DNA of 64,000 nucleotides from Lenzites betulinus (taxonomy: Eukaryota; Basidiomycota; Agaricomycetes; Polyporales; Polyporaceae). The stretch is taken from positions 186,001-250,000 of the forward strand of contig JABYQU010000022.1 in NCBI GenBank assembly GCA_022264855.1, read 5' to 3'. Below, piece by piece: positions 6,697 through 58,176 of this stretch. Under the pieces are notes generated by a model that saw only the letters and a program-made list of their open reading frames with translations, did no database searches and had not been told where the DNA came from. Both the position numbers and the translations under genes were made by a program. Positions within the stretch are counted from its first letter, which is position 1; each line of letters opens with the position of its first letter.

Positions 6697-7199
6697 CAGC
6701 AGCTGTTGTACCATTAATGTGTCACGAACCGTTTAGCTTCCGTAACCGTTTTACATTACGAACCGTCAGGGCCCGTAATGTGTTACGAAGCTCCGGAGAG
6801 CGCCCCGGGACCTTCCTAATTAGGTAGGCAGCCCGGGGGAGGCCTGTTATCTCCCCAGAGATAACAGATTGGCCCATATCTAACTGATCACTTTCTTATC
6901 TTTCTAGATTAAGTCTTTATCTCATCTCTCTGGCCTCTCCCCTGCCTCAATAGCCTCGCTACACGGGCGCTTATTTTCGTTTTTGGTGCGTACCTCCTAC
7001 CCTTCTCTGGCTCATAGCTCATTCAGTTTCCACTCAATCAGGCTCTATCCAGGCTTGTTTGAAAGGCAATACAAATGCGAAAAATCGTATAGAGGTTTCG
7101 CTAGACACAGGTAAGTACTCACACAATGATCATAGGTGCTACTGGGCGCTTCAAGCAACACAAACCGAGCGATAAATCGCCCGTTTCGCGTCGCAAACC

Positions 7200-7260
7200 C
7201 ACGCGCAAGGGCTCCCTAGAACCGTGCTTTCAGTGCGGTTCTAACGAGCCCTTGCGCGTG
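7200..7260. repeat. Subterminal hairpin in left arm of element B
   Basis: An outer stem of about 14 bp (7,200-7,213 with 7,247-7,260, CACGCGCAAGGGCT type) encloses an inner 8-bp stem (7,217-7,224 with 7,236-7,243). A related hairpin occurs in the other arm at 8,529-8,580. Confidence 0.75.
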
Positions 7261-8528
7261 AGAAACGACCCAGCCGTTCCCAAGGTGTGTGTGCTTCTCC
7301 CCAGGAGCAATCCACCTTGGAGCAGTTCGCTCTTTTCTCCCCCATAACATGTCACAGTGCCCTGAAAGTTGATTTATAGGTACTATATAACCCCTCAAGT
7401 AAAGAACAGCATTCAGAACACTCAAACAAGAGCATAAGAAGACGTTCCAGCCCAAGCTATAGCACACCCCCCTAACCCCCCTCCCTGCTCTTTCCTTCTC
7501 CCCCCTGACGCCCCACCCCGGCGCTGTTAATTTCAGACTATGTATCTATTACCCATACATGTATCTACGACGTTTCAGGACACCTAGATGTGAAATGAAG
7601 AATATATTTAAGTTCTTCCTCTGACATCATCTGCCCTGTGGGCGTTCAGTATGCTACCCAATATCCATTATAATACATGGGTCATGTAGACGTCGTATGT
7701 AGCTAACCAATGCAAAAGAAACGATGTAAAACGACAAAGAAATGAATGAGTTATGAGCTTTACAGTGTGAACATACATATATTGTGCTTACCACTGCTCC
7801 GGGACTGTAAGACCCGTCTTACAGCATCTTACAGTACACAGCTATGCACTAGCACAAACTAGACACCTTAGATACTTTCCTCATAGCTCCGTGACTTCTG
7901 CACCAAATATTATGATTCAAAATGTGTTATGTTCGTCTTTCCAATGTCTATTCAATGGTACAGTTTGTTTTACTATCGCATGCCTGGATCAGGTACTATC
8001 AAGCACTATAGTTGACAACTGATAAGGGTGCCAAAGAACCAGTTCCTCGCCGATTAGGCGCAAAGACCACGGGTCTGTTCACACATGCAAGACAGACCAG
8101 CTGAAAAAAACAGGATATTGATACGACTCTTTTTCACTGAGATATCGAGGTTTTGAGGGAGGAAGAAGTATTTCTCGCTTTTTTTAAGTTGCAGACACTG
8201 TAACACACTGTAAGAGGCAATGAAGGGGTTTAAAATATATTGAAGACTAGTAGTAGCATACATAGGGTGTATGGAGAGGTCACAAGGGGTCTATCAACAA
8301 AGGGAGAGGGTGTGGAGGGTCCTATGATCACCCATATTATACTAGATCTAGCTGAATTGGCGGGTTCTGTGTATGTGGAATCCATTTGAGCACACTACTA
8401 TGGTATACATACAAGAGATGGGACATGTGCAATAGAAAATGGAAGAGAAACAGCCCAGATGTTCCCAAGGATGCTGCTCCTGGGGAAGGGCGCGCATAAC
8501 TTGGGAACCGCTGGGTCGTTCTGCGCGC

Positions 8529-8580
8529 AAAAGGACGCGTTAGAACCGCACTGAAAGCACGATTCTAACGCGTCCTTTTG
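8529..8580. repeat. Subterminal hairpin in right arm of element B
   Basis: This is the counterpart of 7,200-7,260. CAAAAGGACGCGTTAGAA and its complement flank a loop containing CTGAAAG. It is palindromic within one arm in addition to the arm-to-arm complementarity. Confidence 0.75.
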
Positions 8581-9087
8581 CGTGGTTTGACAACGCAAAA
8601 CGGACGAGCTATCGCCCGTTTTGTGTCGCTTAAAGCGCCCTAGTAGCACTTGTGATCTTATGTGAGTACTTACCTGTGTCTAACGAAACCTGTATACGAT
8701 TTTTCGCATTTAAATCGCCTTTCAAACAAGCCTAGATATAGCCTGATAGAGTAGAAACTGAGTGAGCTAGCAGGAGAAGAAGCAGGAGGAGGAGCGCACC
8801 AAAACGCGAAATAAGCGCCCGTGTGGCGAGGCTATTGAGGCAGGGGAGGGACCCGGGAGATGAGATAACAAGTTAATCTAAAGAGATAAGGCACAATCAG
8901 TAAGATCTGGGCATATCTGCTATCTCTGGGGAGATAACAGGCCTCCCCCGGGCTGCCTGCCTAATTAGGAAGGTCCCGGGGCGCTCTCCGGAGCTTCGTA
9001 ACACATTACGGGCCCTGACGGTTCGTAATGTAAAACGGTTACGGAAGCTAAACGGTTCGTGACACATTATGGGTACAACATATGGTG

Positions 9088-47743: not shown

Positions 47744-50454
47744 TTAAATAGTGAGCGAGGGGATGCCCGAGCCCGAACCCGCAAAGAAGTTCGTCCGCTG
47801 CAAAGAGCTCGTCGCCCGGCTCTTGTGGTTCGGCAGGTGGTGGTGGTGGTGCCCGCGGTGTGGCTGCGAGTACCGGTGCTGCGACGACTTCGCGACCAGC
47901 TTCCGCTTCATCATCGCCTTCTCCTTCTTCAGCTCCTTCTTCGACTTGCTCCCCTGCTGCTGGTGCGACCCGGAGCCGGAGCCAGACCCCGCGGGCGCGA
48001 ACGGCGAACCGAGCGCGCCGTCCCGCGCCGGGAGCGTCGGGGAAGTCCCGTGCGAGTGCGACTGCCGCGACTTGCGCTTCCGTGCGCTCGCCCGCGACAT
48101 CTTGTCCAGCGGGGGCGAGAAGAGGGGAAGCGCACCACCCATGTAACCGCGGTACGCCCCAAGGCCGGTGTCGGACGCCGCGCCGTCCACGCCAGACGCC
48201 GTCGCCGTCTCGCGTGTACGCCGGAACGTGGCCATCGGGATGCGGTCCCACCGCGAGAGGTTCTGGATGTGCGAACCTTTGATAGGGCTGGACTGCGAAT
48301 GCGGGTCGGGGATGTCCGTGTCGCAGTCCTGCGTGGAGGGCTCCGAGTCGAGCAGGGACGAATCAAGGACCTCATCCAGCTCAATTGCCTCGGTCGAAGA
48401 GAGATCTGAAGTGTACGACTGTTGTGATGGAGCCTGAACAGCCTCATCAGAGGACTCGGTCGACATGGGCGGGCGGAGAGAAGACATGAACACGTCCTGA
48501 GAACGGACGCGCGCACATCTTAGAACAATGAACGCAGCAAGGAGGCAAGAAACCAACACACCTCCACAGAGATCTCTTGCTTGATGGGTCGCGCAAAGCG
48601 CACTGGTCTGGGGTAAAAGCTAGGCACCTGATACCCCTCGCCGACGATTGCCGTCTGTTTGGGCGAACCCATGCCATCGACGACAAATTCGCCCATGGTG
48701 GGGATTCCCCGCCGCCTGTTGACAGGCGAGAACTTCTCCTTGTCCATCTCGATGTCATCAATGTCGTCCATCGAAATCTTACCCGCAAGGATGTCAGCGG
48801 GTGTAGGCGGGGGCGACCGACGTTGGCTCGAGATGGAGGCCAGTGCGATGCGAGTGCTTGGGGACGCGTTGGGCGGCGGCGTGGCGAGAGGGTTGACAGT
48901 CGAGAGCGGGTTGATGGCTGAGACGCTACTCGGCCAGCGGAAGAGCATCATAGCACGCGAGTTGGGGAGCCCATCCGAGTCCACGAGCTCGTCCTCGGTT
49001 GTGTCCCCCTCGCTTTCCTGCAGAACGACAGTGCCAGTGCCCGAACCGTCGTCGTCGGAGCCGGACGCGTCTGAGCCGGACGCTGAGTACATGTCCGCAT
49101 CCTCGTCCGGGGCGGACATGCTGAACAGGCCAAGACCATCGTCTGCGAAGAGCAGGCGGCCGTCCCAGTCGAACGCGAGATTATCGAGCTCGACGCCGAT
49201 CTCAAACGCGCGGTCCGAGCGCCTGAACTGCACGGACGGGTCGAGGTCCATCAGCAGCAGCGTATCTCCCTCCTCAGCAGAGAACGAGCCGGAGAGCTCG
49301 ACGTCGGACGTGAAGCCGCGTAGGTCCGTATATTGGGCCTCCGGGGACTCCGCGCCCGAGTCGGACGAGCCGTCGAGGTTGGCAAAGAACAGCTCAGCAT
49401 CGAAAGCCTCGTCCTCGTCATCGTCGCTCCAGCCGTTCCCCGGGAAGGTGATGCCGATGCGGCTGCGCGTCTCTTCGTCTTCATCATCCAGGTCCACATC
49501 AGCCTCACCGGGCACAGCGCTCTCGATCTCCGCCTCGACGTCCGCCTCCGCCTCTTCCTCTTCCTCCTCTTCATCGTCATTCTCATCATCTCCGTCTTCG
49601 GACGATTCTGCAGAGTCGTCACTGTCGGCAGAGGACTCCTGCTCGTCCTCCTCGCCGACACCGACAGACTTTTTCCGCGGGCGGATTTCCCACTTGTTGT
49701 TACTTCCGCGGTCACGCTTTTTCTGCCCGAGGTGGCTAAGCAGTAGTTTTGTCGAGGGACACTCGTTCGCGCTGGGGGGAATGAAGTATACGTTGTCCTC
49801 TTCATCCGTGGACGACTCTATCTCCGAGTCCGAGGACTCGGACGAGCTGGAATGGGTGGACTCGCTTGCGGCGGGTACGAAGGTGGGGTAGTCGGAGAGG
49901 GTGCTGTCGCTCAGGTCTGCAGTGGAGGTGCTTGCGACGGGAGCGGGGGCCTGGAAGACTCTGCGTGTGATCCCGGTCGTGCCTCTGGCCTTGTACTCCA
50001 TGTCGTCTGCGACGACTTTCTTCTTGGGCGCATGCTTTGGGACGGCGAGGGCTTTGGGGGGCCTGCCGCGCCGCTTGGGGGCGGGGGCGGCTGCGGCGGA
50101 GGCATTGGCGGACGTGCGGGAAGATGAGGGTACGGGATCTGTGGCGGAGCCGAAGCGGGCGCTTTGGGGATGAGGGTGAGTCGCGGGAGGTTTGCGTGCT
50201 TTGGCGAGGGAGAGTTTTATCTTGAGCGGCTGCTTGCCGGCGTGTGTGGGGGGACGGTATGAGGAGGAGGGAGCGGAAGAAGGAGTAGAGGACGCGGAAG
50301 GCGCAGTTGCGGTGGAGGCGCGAGTGGGAGCCGACTTTTTGGGGCACGTGCATTCGCTCTCGCAGACGGGGCAAATGTCGTCCAGATCCTCGTCCTCGTC
50401 CTGGGGAAAGGACGAGGGGGCGGTGTTCACGATATGGGCATAAGACAGCGACAT
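47744..50454 (-). CDS. Acidic AT-hook nuclear protein with N-terminal cysteine cluster
   Basis: Two exons (50,454-48,562 and 48,496-47,744) joined by a 65-bp intron give 881 residues. Near the N-terminus is a CX2CX3CXC cluster (ICPVCESECTCPKK, residues about 27-40). An AT-hook KRRGRPPK lies at about 127-134. The middle is strongly acidic, with runs of E and D mixed with serines (DENDDEEEEEEEAEADVE). The C-terminal exon is basic and histidine-rich (KSKKELKKEKAMMKRK and HRGHHHHHLPNH). AT-hooks bind the minor groove of AT-rich DNA, so a chromatin or transcription role is likely. No enzyme domain is seen and I do not recognise a named orthologue. Its upstream region now ends at the 5.3-kb element. 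Confidence 0.8.
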
Positions 50455-50835
50455 TGGAGAAACTTGCTTTTTCTGGGGATCTGAAAAGCGAGAGCGGGTG
50501 AGCGAGGATGAGCAAGGACGGCGGGGTCGTGAAAAGAGAGTGGTGTGAGCGTGGTGGCGGCACATGCGTCGAGGGTGGTGGGGGGACGAAAGACCGGTGT
50601 AGGCTGGGGTGGGGTGGAAAAGAGGCGGATGGGGGAAAAGGATTCGGGCGTCGGGTCGGATGATCGTGCGGACGAGGATGATGGAGACGGCCTCGGCGAA
50701 GGCAAAAAAGAGCAGGAAAAGGACTCACGATGAGCGAATGTCTTTTTTGCCATGTTGTGAGATGGAGCATCTGGCGGGGCGGGGGCACTCCAGGGCTGCA
50801 GCGAGCAGAGAGAGAGAGGCGGCTGGGTCGAAGCG

Positions 50836-50842
50836 TATAAAG
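50836..50842 (+). promoter_or_regulatory. Candidate TATA box, originally of BFR2
   Basis: The word TATAAAG on the plus strand lies 26 bp left of the element's target duplication. In the empty site it would be about 160 bp upstream of the BFR2 start codon; with the element present it is about 5.5 kb away. It is a sequence match only. Confidence 0.35.
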
Positions 50843-50861
50843 CTCCGGCGTGTTCGTGCAG

Positions 50862-50867
50862 TCCCAA
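50862..50867. repeat. Target-site duplication, left copy (TCCCAA)
   Basis: TCCCAA abuts the left terminal inverted repeat and recurs at 56,189-56,194. Reading one base further gives GTCCCAA on both sides, but on the right that G belongs to the terminal repeat, so the duplication is 6 or 7 bp. Confidence 0.75.
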
Positions 50868-50888
50868 CCAAGGGGCAACCGCTCAGGG
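50868..50888. repeat. Left terminal inverted repeat
   Basis: 21 bases, beginning CCAAGGGGCAACCGC. It is identical to the reverse complement of 56,168-56,188. Confidence 0.9.
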
Positions 50889-51006
50889 AATGGCCGAACC
50901 CAACCCCCAAAAGTTGGCACCAGGACACCGGACACCAGGGGAGGGGGGATGTACCTTAGCCGAGATTAGATTGCGGCAAGATTAACGATACTTGTAGCTT
51001 CAATCA

Positions 51007-54000
51007 TTATCTCGTTCTGACTGCCTTCCTCCGACGTCCAACCACCTCCGTTGTTGACTGCGCCCTCCCTCGCTTTTGAACGGCTACCTGTTCTGCTGCC
51101 TGCTCCTGAAATGCTTGGATATCGTCGCTCCCGGGAACCTCGTTCTCCTCCCGCCACTCGTCTGTGCAGTCCTCTTCGATCCCCATAGCTTGTTCCTCTG
51201 CCTTGGAGATGTGCATGTCGACGAGAAACTGAGGGGGGATACCGGGTAAGTTCTTATCTTTATCCTGGTGGTTAATGAGAAGGTGTGTTATGGCGTTATA
51301 TTTCCATATTGCTTGTGGTTCTCCGGAGGTCGGCTGAGGCGGGCAAAAGGGGCAGTGGATGGGAACGTTTGTACATGGAGTTGCCGATGTTGTCTTGCAA
51401 GCTGCCGCATATGACATGGCTGCATAATGGTAACGGCAGCTAGATGCGACCTTGTAAGAAGTGCCTTTCTTTGCTAAGAAGGTGCGGCACATATCGGCGC
51501 GTCCACAAAACCCACATGGCTCGATTCCGATCTACATGGGCCCAGTTTAGTAATTGTGCCAAATTTTACTCTCCCACTTACTTCCTGCGTCAGCTCGACA
51601 TCATCTGGGACATCTCTCAGCGAGTACAAAATATGGTGACCAACATGATTTCGCATAAGCGACAACTCGAGGGTCTTGCCGCATAGCAGACATGGAACCT
51701 TCTGCTTTGCATCGAGCTTCTTCATACGGAGGTGCGCCGGAATGTCCTGTACAAGCAGAGCGGTACCTGGGGAGTATCAGCTCCTATTTATCGATGCCAT
51801 CTACGATGTATGTTTTCTCACCGGCTGGATCCCGGTAGGGCAGTGAATCTGACTTCGCCACTGATGGTAGTTGTTCAATATTATGCAGAATCTCATCCAT
51901 AGCCGGCTTCAACGCGTTCCAGGCAGCTTCCAATGTCTCACGGAGCTGTGTGTCTGACAACGCCCAGGTGAACGACTGCGTTGCTACTTGTGTTTGTTTT
52001 AATTTTATGTTATCGCAGTATGGCTTAACAACGTACCTTCCGGATCCGCAGATAGGTTTGTTTCAGTTTCCGGCTGCTTCTGTCGCTCGGAATCGGATGG
52101 TACTGGCACAACTGATGGCCCTAATGGGAATAGAAGGGGGCCCGGGATAAGGAGCGAGTGCGGCGAGCCTCTTCCCTGCGGGGCCGATCGTTCATGCCGT
52201 ATCGGTGCATATCGGTGATCCCAAAGCCAAGTCGTTCCTGCAGCGGGAGGGAAGTCCTGCACCGGTCGCATCTCAAGCACCTGCACGAGTATCTTGATGT
52301 GTCTGTCCTCGGCCTCCATCTCCTCGAGTTCGACTGCTGTAACCCTTCGTGTTTGATCCCCGCTGATATGTATCTCCAGGACCTCGACGACAGCAAGACA
52401 GACTGTCTCCTCGACCCGGACAAGGGCCCCCGCAATATCTCCGCACTTGACAAGGTCGGCACCGTCTACGTCATTCCGGTTGAATCGATCATAGTCGCTG
52501 GTGCGGAGGTCCTCGATGGTGACGCCTCGTGCACGTAAGATACGTACGGTGACCTTGCGGGACCGTTTAGCGGTTAGAAAACTGGTCACAACAGACGCTT
52601 TCAGGTACTTCTTGCCATCAATCATCAAGAAGTGCTCCTCGCTGAACACTGATGAAGTGTTAGAAGTCGCCGAGGGTCTAGGTCTCCGGACTTGTTGACT
52701 CGGAAGGAAGTCGTCCACCTCAATGCCCTCAGGTTCGTCATCAAACCCGCCGTCGTCATCTGATGAGCTATGGTCACCGGTGCCGGCGCATGCCATAGGT
52801 GCTTCTTGTTGTGATGAGTCCACAGCGTCTTCGCTCTCCGCTGCATCAGTGCGTAGATCATCCGGCTCGAAGTTACATCCCACATATTCACCCAAAGGCC
52901 GTAGAAGGTCACAGCCAGCATCCACTCGAAAGATCGCGTCGAAGTCCATCCGCGCAGATTGCCCGAAGTAGCTGGTAAGCATCTTATTTGCTTCTTCACG
53001 TCCTCGTGTCCATTCCGCTGCCAGCTCCACATCGCCGACTCTAACGCTAGCTTTCCATGAGCGAGGATTGACATGATCGACACCCATGGCATCCTTGAGG
53101 GACAGTCGACGATGGCCTCGATCTAAATCGGGGTTACGCTCGAATATTCCTTGGATCAGCGCACTGATGGCAAGCTTCTCAGAAAGCTGCTGAGCATCGA
53201 AGTTACGGCTATGGTCCTGAGTACGACAGTCGCCGAAGAGCCCTTCCAGACGATCCGTGCCCTCGAGTATGATATGGAAAGGTAAGTTGCTATCGACGAG
53301 CTGGAGACGGGCAATGGTAAGGATGATGTTCTTGATAATTGCTTGTGAATCTGCGTAGAGTGCTCCGGTCATGAACTTTGTACGATGACGGATCCAGAGG
53401 GTGGCGGTGAGGTGAGCATATGTTGCCAATGAGCGTACTTGCTCGGAGAGTGTCATGTTGACTGAGATGAAGGGAAGAAAGAAGAAACCCAGCGTCTGAG
53501 CCAGAAATAATAGCACATGTTGCCGGTGTGTCTGCGATGGGAGCGCTGCGGGTACCGGTGTCTCTTTGAGCATGAGAAGGCTCTGAAGGAGGTTGATGGC
53601 CTTGGGCACGTTTTGCTTATCCGCAGGGTCGAGGAGTTGTCGCGCTTTCTCCGAAGTCATACCAGGGAGTGTGCGCAGATGTTCGAAGACATTCTGTGAA
53701 GTCAGAAGTGTCTCGAAGATAAGAATTCCCTTTGGATTGCGAACGAGTGTTGCAAATCCTAAGAGTTGTGAGCCTTAAGCTACTCGTTTATGAAGGTCAG
53801 GACTGTGCAACATACGTTTGATAACATGCTTTGGGTCACACGTTCCGACCAAGCCATGGGGGCCAGTATAGCAATTAAACCCCCGAAGACTGTACACGAT
53901 CCGCCCCAGGGATGTTGCACGATCGATCACCTCCGTCATACATAGAAGGAACCGTGCGCGCCGAAACGAAGACTCGCCATCACTCCCCAAAGCCCAGAGA

Positions 54001-56023
54001 GGTCCATGGGTCTTCTCGCCAAATGGGTGCGTTCTCCATACTTGTATCACCGCAAGGAGTGTGTCTGCAAGCTCCTCGCCCGTTTCACCTTTGCATGATG
54101 GTGAGAGAAGGATCGGTACGGGAGTATAGTGGTCAGTGCGAGCATACGGTGCGACTGCAGCTACAGTCCCGTCCTTCCCATAGCAGCACGTTGGCTCTTC
54201 ACCATCGACTCCATGGAGGGCATCCTCGACCTTCTTTACAATATCAAGACTAGTAACACGGGTATTGAGACCAGCGCTGTGTTCACGACAAAGTCCAACG
54301 ATGCTGTTGCGCTCTGAACAATAGCGGCATCGCTCCTCGAGGGCAACTCCGTCAATCATGAGGATAAGTCCTGCGACAGTGGGCCGTGCACCTGGATCGT
54401 CCTGCATACGGTTAGGGTCGGATGGGGGAATCATAGATGGTCTGGTCTCTGGGTTGCAAAGGGAGGCGATATTTGCGCTGATCTCATCCTCTGTTGGTCT
54501 GCTAATGGACGGTCGGAGCCGAGGAATGCTCATCTGCCGTCCAACTGTTGTAATAGAGGGGAGGCCATGCGAGTGTGCAAGTGCGTAGAGAAGCCTAGGG
54601 CCCCCGAGTGCTTTCGCGAGAAACGCAACCTCTATTTCGCGGCCGTCGAAGCCACCCCGGGGTGTGAACCGTCCTTCGAGAGAGTCCTCGATCCGAGAGA
54701 TCAAGGCTCGCACGCTCGCCCCTTTCCGAAGGGCGACAGATAACAAACGCTGCAGACGCTGGACATCATTCGTAGCTAGCAGCATGACAAGCCGCTGATT
54801 GTCGCCAATTCGTCGACGCAGAGTTGATAACTTGCGTTGCACGTTGAAAAGCTACGGGTGATCTTGATTTATTACACATGTACGACAATAATATATACAC
54901 AAGCACGCACCTTGAGCCGCATCTCCTGACACAGAGCTGTCCTTTTGATTAACACTGCATGTACTTGATCGTATGTGAGCGCGAGCCATGGCGTGTGGTC
55001 CGACGCTGATACCGCCCGATCCATGACCTTCATGAACTGTTCTGAGGCAGGCACACCGAGACAAGCAGCGCAAACCTTGCCCATCCCTGAGACAACCCCG
55101 GAACAGCTGTCTGACCGAATGCGAAGCCACCGGTCATTCTCAAATGCCACTGGTTCCCAATGGAGAGCAGTCGTCGTGTGCCGGTGATAAGGATATGTGC
55201 TCCAGATCGATCCAGCCTTCCACTCGATCAGAGCTCCGGGACACTCGTATATAGGGAGAGTGGGAGAGTGCGAACGAGACTCAGAAGTCAGCAGAGATCC
55301 GAGTCTGATAGGCTTGTCCCGGAAGTGGGTGTGGGGGGAATGAAAGCTCAGGGTATCACGGTGTGAAACCGATCTGACTGGAGTGATTGACAGATTTGTT
55401 GGAAGATCGGGGACTTCAGGAAGAACTGCCGTTGTTATATTGTGGGGTGTATTGAATCCAGATACGGGTACTGATGATGCTGGAGTAGCAGTGGGTGTCG
55501 GGGAAGTGCTGGTGGGTGGATCACGGTATAGCATAGCGGAGTCAGGCAGCGGGGCGAGTGTGGAGCCTTGGATCGGGGCTGCACTGACCGAGTCGCGTAG
55601 TAGAGCGATACGGGACTGTTCCTGCTCAGCATTGCGCCGTCTGGCATGTTTTTGACAGTTATTGGTCTTCCGATGTTGTAGGATCCGAGCAGGATGGCCG
55701 GTGGGGGTAAGAGTAACCTCCTTGCCGCAGAGGTCGCAAGTCACAGCGTACTTTTGTGTTTCCACAATGTAGTAAGTATACAAGGTTATATCAGATTCAA
55801 CAGCAATGGCAATAGGGGGAGGAACGGCGGGATTGTCGCCCTCCATGATGGGATGTCGAGAGCAGGTTGCCGAGCGGGCAGGCGTTGAGTAGATATCGCT
55901 CGATATGGAAACACAATGAGCGCCTGATTCCCCGGCCTTCCTCAGAACCATCGGTTCATTGTTTGAGATGTTTAACACACATTCTTCCATATCTGAAGCG
56001 CGAAGAATATTTCTGCACATCAT
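51007..56023 (-). CDS. Putative transposase of the 5.3-kb element, about 1,581 residues
   Basis: Six exons: 56,023-54,911; 54,851-53,816; 53,758-52,037; 51,986-51,822; 51,766-51,582; 51,531-51,007, all with GT-AG borders and no internal stop. An N-terminal zinc-finger-like segment (CDLCGKEVTLTPTGH...HRKTNNC) is followed by a serine/proline linker and a helical region. A probable RNase H-like core comes next: LILMIDGVALEE, then a cysteine/histidine insert (CRYCSERNSIVGLCREH), then WALGSDGESSFRRARF. Later, ILEGTDRLEGLFGDCRTQD offers a late acidic residue. An acidic mid-region and C-terminal zinc-finger-like motifs (CLLCGKTLELSLMRNHVGHH, CGFCGRADMC, CPFCPPQP) complete it. The D/D/E pattern suggests a DDE transposase; this is inference, and no family was recognised. 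A shorter start at 55,846 is possible. Confidence 0.75.
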
Positions 56024-56167
56024 AAGACGTTGCTCTGAGTTTCTGAAGACGATACATGCTGTTTTGCGCTGTGGAGGAGAAATCTAGCTCAAACGAGCGA
56101 AAAAGTTCAAATCAGGACCCCGGAAACCCGAAACGACGATGATGATGATAGGATATGTTCAGCGCTC

Positions 56168-56188
56168 CCCTGAGCGGTTGCCCCTTGG
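56168..56188. repeat. Right terminal inverted repeat
   Basis: Exact inverted match of 50,868-50,888. Confidence 0.9.
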
Positions 56189-56194
56189 TCCCAA
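56189..56194. repeat. Target-site duplication, right copy (TCCCAA)
   Basis: Direct repeat of 50,862-50,867, abutting the right terminal repeat and 130 bp upstream of the BFR2 start codon. Confidence 0.75.
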
Positions 56195-56323
56195 CCCAAG
56201 CTTGCTCGCCCTCTTACCCTCCCGCAGGCGCCCGGCGACCATCAACCGCTCGCCCGCACCCCTCCTTCCTTTTCCGTAACTCCATCATCCTCGCGAATTT
56301 CCTCCTCCGTCTTCGCCACACCC

Positions 56324-58176
56324 ATGTCTGCCCGTATGTTTTTTCCCTCTCCTCGCAGGGTGCTCACGACTAACACACTGCCGCGCCACAGGTCTCTCCC
56401 TCAAGGACCAGCTCGCCGAGCTCGCCCAGCCTGCCCCCGTCGGTGCGTGCCTTTTCGTCCTCATGTGAGTCGCGCTAAACCCTCGATCACCAGACCTCGA
56501 TCCTGAGGACGTCCTCGCAGCCTTTGCCCAGCATCGATTGCCCCCCATCGATGATCCCGCCGCAAGAGAACATTACATTGACGTCGCGTGAGTCCTCACG
56601 CTTCCCCCACCCGCGTTCTCTATTCATCTCCCCCCGCCCTGCCCCCAGCCCCTCCGCAATACGTAAACTCCACGAGTCTGTCCACGACCCCAAGTACGAC
56701 GGCGTCCGCACCTCCCGCAAGCACCTCGACGATTTTTCAGACCACGACAGCGACCAGGACGAGGATGGTCTGGAGCACCCATTTAGCGACGGCAACACCG
56801 AGGACGAGGACGAGAACGAGGACGAGGAGGACGAGCTCGACAGTGCGGCAGAAGATGATGCCTCGCTAGACGCGTCCGGATCCGCATCCGAGCACGACGA
56901 AGACGAGGCACCACCCCGCACGGCTGCCAGACGCCATTCAGACGCAGCCGCCGCCCCCAGCCACCGTGCGCCGGCTCCCCCACCGGCAGCCTCTCCCGAG
57001 CCCCAGCGCGAGGACAACGATATCGCCTCCAATCTTCGCAAGACACACGAGGTGGACAAGAAAAAGGGCAGGGCCGTATCACGTCAGATCGTGAGTCCAC
57101 GCACCCGCTACCCGCGCATCGTGCTCATCCTTGCCGTGATCGCGATCTAGGCCCTCTGGGACACCCTCCTCGATGCCCGCATCCAGCTGCACAAGGCCGT
57201 CACTGCCGCAAATAGACTCCCCTCGGTATGCCGTCGCTTTTCCTCCCTCGTCCAGCCGATAGCTCACCGCATATCGCAGCCCAATGAGATTGCGCAATAC
57301 GTCGCACATCCCGCCTCGCGCGAGGCCCTCGACGGCTTCTTCGACGTAGCCGACAGCCTCACCGAGGAGCTCTTCTCTCTCCAGGAGGTACGCGCACGCC
57401 TTCTTATCCCACTCGCCACCCCTTCACGCATGTCTTACTAACATGCCCCTCACACGCAGGACCTCCTCCGTCTGAACGAATCGATCGAGCCACCAGCCCG
57501 CAAACGGCGCCGGCTCTCCCCCCAGCCGGAAGTACCTTCACCCAGCGACCACGGCACCGCCCTCACCACACTCTCCTCCACCGCCTCCGCGCTCGAGGCG
57601 AGCTACCACCCCTGGCTCGTCGACACGCTCACAAAATGGTCCGCAAAAGTACAAGCCGTCGCGCCGAACGTGCTCCTCCCAGATAACAAAGGCTCCTTCC
57701 TCCGGGACGCCCGCGCCCCCGCACACGCCAGCGTCGTCGCCCTCGTCGACGACGTCCTCCGCGCCGACGCGCCAAAACTCCTCGCCCGCACCCGCACCCG
57801 CAAAGACCGACACACCCGCCTCGGGCGCCCGCTCCCCCACTCTACCGCCGCCGCCTCCGACGAAGCCGACGCCGACACGCCCGACTTAGACCTGTTCGAC
57901 GACACGGACTACTACCAGCAGCTCCTGCGCGACGTGATCGCCGCGCGCGGGGGCGGCGCAGACGGCGGCGCGGGCGAGGCGCAGTGGCAGGCCGCGCAGC
58001 GCGAGCGCAAGGCGCGCCGGCGGCGCACGGTCGACACGAAGGCGAGCAAGGGCCGCAAGCTGCGCTACGACGCGCACCCGAAGCTGCAGAACTTCATGGT
58101 GCCCGTGCCGCCCGCCGCGGCCGAGTGGCACGAGGAGCAGATCGACGGCCTGTTCTCGTCGCTGCTGCAGTCGTAG
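56324..58176 (+). CDS. BFR2: BFR2 / AATF-like ribosome biogenesis protein
   Basis: Seven exons: 56,324-56,333; 56,392-56,442; 56,494-56,587; 56,649-57,090; 57,151-57,225; 57,280-57,387; 57,460-58,176, giving 498 residues. The first exon has only ten bases. The sequence opens with LSLKDQLAELAQP and DPEDVLAAFAQH, then a long acidic region. The AATF domain follows, with ALWDTLLDARIQLHKAVTAA and a helical stretch before a basic cluster. The C-terminal TRAUB domain has DDTDYYQQLLRDVI, KASKGRKLRYDAHPKLQNFM and a final LFSSLLQS. Bfr2/AATF acts in the nucleolar small-subunit processome, in early 18S rRNA processing. The 5.3-kb element is inserted 130 bp upstream of the start codon, so its regulation may be altered. 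Confidence 0.93.

Follow-up and report, generated by a model that had tools for sequence, protein, structure and literature searches.

What kind of transposon occupies a 5.3-kb stretch of the Lenzites betulinus genome that ends in perfect inverted repeats and carries one large gene? The element lies in a window of 64,000 nucleotides (contig JABYQU010000022.1, positions 186,001 to 250,000 of the forward strand; the window is the whole stretch of DNA analysed, and its own numbering is used below). We conclude, with a probability of about 0.82, that it is a cut-and-paste DNA transposon, complete in structure and potentially autonomous, and that it belongs to a P-element-like lineage widespread in Agaricomycetes. 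It is filed here as a P-element-like lineage, not as an animal-type P element, and seems to represent a little-catalogued branch of a familiar transposon type. The initial annotation had presented it as a candidate for an undescribed system, which is too strong, since a 2011 account reported P elements that make 8-bp duplications from rust fungi, describing them as previously unknown in Dikarya (PMC3164196).

Ends, target site duplication and gene

The element is bounded by 20-bp terminal inverted repeats (CAAGGGGCAACCGCTCAGGG) that are exact reverse complements of each other, and the flanks immediately outside read GTCCCAAC on both sides, with 8 of 8 positions matching in this one copy (Table 1). 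The inverted identity extends two bases further outward on either side. Because the duplication starts with GT and ends with AC, the inverted symmetry runs into it, and cuts of 20/8, 21/6 and 22/4 (repeat/duplication) are all formally possible. The 20/8 cut was preferred because it gives the longest exact duplication and because 8 bp is the length predicted by the P assignment. The 21-bp repeat and TCCCAA direct repeat first described are the same sequence with the boundary moved one base outward: the direct repeat is there, its 6-bp reading gives way to the 8-bp one, and the superfamily comparison that rested on six base pairs does not hold. Dada elements produce 6-7 bp duplications and insert into multicopy small-RNA genes. 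Judged by duplication and insertion site alone, Dada was rejected, the duplication being best read as 8 bp; no tRNA and no Rfam family at the gathering threshold was found in 49500-57500.

The specificity of these signals was evaluated against randomized sequence. Perfect inverted repeats reached no more than 14-19 bp in each of 20 order-3 Markov copies of the window. The real window contains 264 perfect inverted 20-mer pairs spaced by at least 500 bp; 139 fall in 1-1740 and 122 in 6700-9085, where two foldback-type elements lie, and the remaining three are the ends of the element. The window has two sites, the element and 6799/8985, at which an exact 8-bp duplication adjoins an inverted repeat of 12 bp or more; at the latter the 8-mer is palindromic and embedded in a longer inverted repeat. 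The same combination gave 0 pairs in 100 Markov windows (mean 0.01 for repeats of at least 10 bp and 0.26 for at least 8 bp).

The gene is read from the minus strand and has six exons, five GT-AG introns of 50-59 bp, a stop at 51007 and no internal stop. Translation from the ATG at 55846 gives 1,522 amino acids and from an upstream in-frame ATG at 56023 gives 1,581; the former was preferred because long homologs begin at a similar distance before the N-terminal C2HC finger. The public Lenzites betulinus model C2E23DRAFT_203440 (P0137, 1,250 amino acids) coincides with ours from residue 331 of 1,581 onward, bar one residue at intron 3. The initial observation of inverted ends, a direct repeat and an interior filled by an open six-exon gene is confirmed, and its reading as a structurally complete one-gene DNA transposon is supported.

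Placement of the transposase

Three protein searches returned 174, 135 and 63 proteins, of which 120, 120 and 63 were listed, the first two sets overlapping. Every host named among the matches listed, many of which name none, is, we take it, an Agaricomycete (the class was looked up for Lenzites), and no protein among them carries a precomputed Pfam domain. The homologs form two subfamilies, the window type (alignment A3, 35 members) and the C25 type (alignment A5), which align with each other over 1,053 columns (hhalign probability 100, E 5e-148). The C-x2-C...H...C finger is present in 24 of 58 proteins longer than 1,200 amino acids, and the cysteine and histidine columns of exon 6 are near invariant in A3.

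The predicted fold of a homolog matched P transposase best (PDB 6p5a/6pe2), by a wide margin, at an aligned identity of 11-13%. It is predicted to contain an RNase H-like core of P type in which a large helical insertion separates strand 5 from the last catalytic helix. The catalytic D, D and E and the D-x2-H motif were kept in 34/35, 35/35, 35/35 and 35/35 members of A3, their equivalence to P residues being drawn from order, strand and spacing, not from superposition. D-x2-H is the signature motif of the P superfamily as defined in PMC8230255. All 35 members also retain an acidic residue three positions before the catalytic E, and a DKQNVPKA motif shows almost no variation.

Pfam scans covered 65 distinct proteins (14/14 and 25/27 families listed). 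None of PF21787, PF21788 and PF21789 was among the families listed for the element's own family; in the sister, C25-type subfamily a weak PF21787 match was found in 18 of 33 proteins (best E 0.0012). Profile searches of the genome gave no match to PF21788 and only irrelevant matches to PF21789. It holds that no sequence profile places the transposase confidently, but the initial view that it could not be placed is not supported. Fold, catalytic spacing, the D-x2-H motif, the weak profile link through the sister subfamily and the 8-bp target duplication of this single copy all point to the P superfamily. No THAP domain was detected in the exon-1 open reading frame or among the families listed for 35 long homologs. 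Since THAP is described as restricted to animals (PMC7776569), this bars the term animal-type P element but not a P-like mechanism.

The absence of a significant match to a P profile in the element's own family, together with N- and C-terminal domains that differ from those of P and P GTP-contact residues that are not established in it, would also suit a separate P-related superfamily built on the RNase H and helical-insertion scaffold common to P, RAG and Transib. We regard such a filing outside P as unlikely.

hAT elements likewise follow the rule of an 8-bp duplication and CAAGG-type ends. The present ends, which start with CAAGG, the 8-bp duplication, the BED-like C2HC finger and a zf-BED match in 1 of 35 members (E 0.0048) could therefore reflect a hAT transposase too diverged for profiles, and hATs are described as active in an Agaricomycete (PMC9674265). 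This is very improbable, because the C-terminal dimerisation domain of hATs is absent among the families listed for the 65 proteins, and both the fold match and the spacing of D-x2-H and D-x2-E are P-like. An 8-bp duplication is also reported for Zisupton (PMC12730594), and KDZ transposases of this superfamily, common in fungi, are abundant in the genome. PF18758, however, matches 77 places there and none within the element, nor is it among the families listed for the homologs, which makes a Zisupton/KDZ origin extremely improbable.

Table 1. Features of the element (positions in the window)
Feature	Position	Strand	Remarks
Whole element, 5,319 bp	50869..56187	-	Bounded by terminal inverted repeats and 8-bp target site duplications
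Terminal inverted repeat CAAGGGGCAACCGCTCAGGG, gene 3' end	50869..50888	+	Perfect reverse complement of 56168-56187
Terminal inverted repeat, gene 5' end	56168..56187	-	Exact reverse complement of CAAGGGGCAACCGCTCAGGG
Left target site duplication GTCCCAAC, 8 bp	50861..50868	.	Identical 8-mer at both ends
Right target site duplication GTCCCAAC	56188..56195	.	Identical 8-mer at both ends
Exon 1: C2HC finger and W/H/C-rich module	54911..55846	-	From preferred ATG; finger pattern in homologs
Exon 2: RNase H strands with D (MIDGVA), D (SDGESS), D-x2-H (DPKH)	53816..54851	-	
Exon 3: helical insertion domain, catalytic E (GTDRLE), acidic linker, SH3-like beta domain	52037..53758	-	
Exon 4	51822..51986	-	Public model one residue shorter at exon start
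Exon 5	51582..51766	-	Identical in public model P0137
Exon 6: C-terminal cysteine/histidine-rich (zinc-finger-like) region and stop codon	51007..51531	-	

Copies and relatives in the genome

The terminal 132 and 158 bp, used as queries against the genome, matched only the element itself, which is the only intact copy and the only copy with these ends found. Sites resembling the terminal inverted repeat with at most 3 mismatches numbered 7 (two own ends and one end on C54) versus 10 for the reversed pattern, so there was no excess. A search with the exon-3 open reading frame detected one relative on C54 and one diverged paralog on C25 (27%). The C54 relative is 62% alike over residues 4-416, with one TGA, and its second piece (46%) follows after about 7.3 kb of other DNA. 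By local comparison its last 70 bp are recognisable (74%) and carry the same terminal CGGTTGCCCCTTG, while its left end was not found. Over 903 codons, codon positions 1, 2 and 3 of the element and this relative differ by 0.296, 0.217 and 0.625, a pattern that fits the expectation for a constrained protein.

The sole intact copy and the lack of excess of end-like sites would suit a P-like element that is immobile here, a lone or domesticated copy with retained ends; this reading is compatible with the P assignment. It is improbable in view of the open six-exon gene, the identical ends, the exact duplication and the intact catalytic residues. The epithet 'recently mobile' was not established from one intact copy in one strain.

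The 7.3-kb stretch (C54:133537-140867) interrupts exon 3 of the C54 relative and bears at its 3' end a tandem 11-bp duplication, GTTGCCCCTTG. The C25 paralog C2E23DRAFT_886092 (C25:93302-97286) is largely open, retains most D/D/E landmarks and has no detectable ends; it may be a diverged element or a domesticated gene. Its subfamily is present in many mushrooms.

Proposed mechanism and insertion site

P elements serve as the textbook example of a cut-and-paste transposon, with GTP use and 17-nt staggered cuts (PMC7776569). By analogy, we infer DNA binding, cleavage chemistry and current activity for the present element. Binding to the 20-bp ends would probably fall to the C2HC finger at the N terminus, to the C-terminal fingers or to both, and the protein would pair the two ends as P does. 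The D-D-E RNase H domain, with a helical insertion placed as in the Drosophila P transposase, would then cut and join the DNA. Joining to the two target strands at points 8 bp from each other would leave the 8-bp duplication.

On either side of the element lies what appears to be a host gene, the two being divergent; their candidate start codons, picked by eye near 50751 and 56324, are about 110 and 130 bp away from it. The open reading frame downstream of the right candidate start encodes a TRAUB domain (E 6e-28) with a sub-cut-off AATF-Che1 match. This position recalls Drosophila P, described as favouring promoters (PMC7776569); as to a promoter preference of the present element, one insertion proves nothing.

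Other mobile DNA

At 6704-9080 the window holds a 2.4-kb element with inverted arms of about 600 bp that are 85.5% alike. Its left arm gave 40 scored matches in the genome, many of them inverted pairs about 1.8-2 kb apart, and it is a high-copy foldback-type element. A long imperfect inverted repeat at 1-1734 (arms of about 565 bp, 77.5%) is probably a foldback element that reaches or crosses the first position of the window. Many of the KDZ matches in the genome contain stops.

Significance

Our literature search on P elements and on novel superfamilies of mushrooms and other fungi, with Repbase and subscription literature outside its scope, gave nothing on the present lineage among the matches listed, and a button mushroom repeat-family table, which covers large repeat clusters, names no P class (PMC7473861). 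We tentatively propose, as a possible but doubtful scenario, that mushrooms hold their own deep P-like branch, unseen by profile libraries, which split from animal and rust P before THAP, binds its ends by zinc fingers and added a C-terminal histone-reader (Tudor/chromo/BAH-like) barrel possibly steering insertion to promoters, with the window-type and C25-type subfamilies coexisting across the class. Mechanistic knowledge of P elements comes from animal elements. A large mushroom family, if true, would make it possible to test which odd P features are ancient and which arose with THAP or in insects, and many mushroom 'hypothetical proteins' would gain a name. The intact copy could serve as a trial mutagenesis tool for basidiomycetes.

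Comparison with known systems

P element ends start with CA, as do those of the present element. It further resembles Drosophila P and THAP9 in the predicted RNase H core with D, D and E, in the D-x2-H that opens a helical insertion following strand 5 and preceding the last catalytic helix, in the acidic residue three before the catalytic E and in the 8-bp target duplication. In contrast to Drosophila P, it has a C2HC/BED-like finger instead of THAP, a W/H/C-rich second module and a long C-terminal extension that includes zinc-finger-like clusters as well as a predicted SH3-like barrel; its ends measure 20 bp as against 31 bp in P, and its protein about 1,522 amino acids. The GTP-binding insertion domain of Drosophila P uses D528, K385, K400, V401, S409, F443, D444 and N447; the insertion domain is present in our element, its GTP contacts being unverified. 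Structural similarity to RAG1/Transib, which make 5-bp target duplications, is lower than to P. The KDZ and Plavaka elements of mushrooms are likewise DNA transposons in the same class of hosts; the KDZ profile does not match the element, and Plavaka duplications are given as 2-3 bp (PMC12730594). The rust-fungus elements P-1_MLP, P-2_MLP and P-1_PSt of Repbase, judged by their description (PMC3164196), are of P superfamily type, come likewise from Basidiomycota and have 8-bp duplications; their hosts are Pucciniales, whereas the named hosts of the present family, among the matches listed, are presumably all Agaricomycetes.
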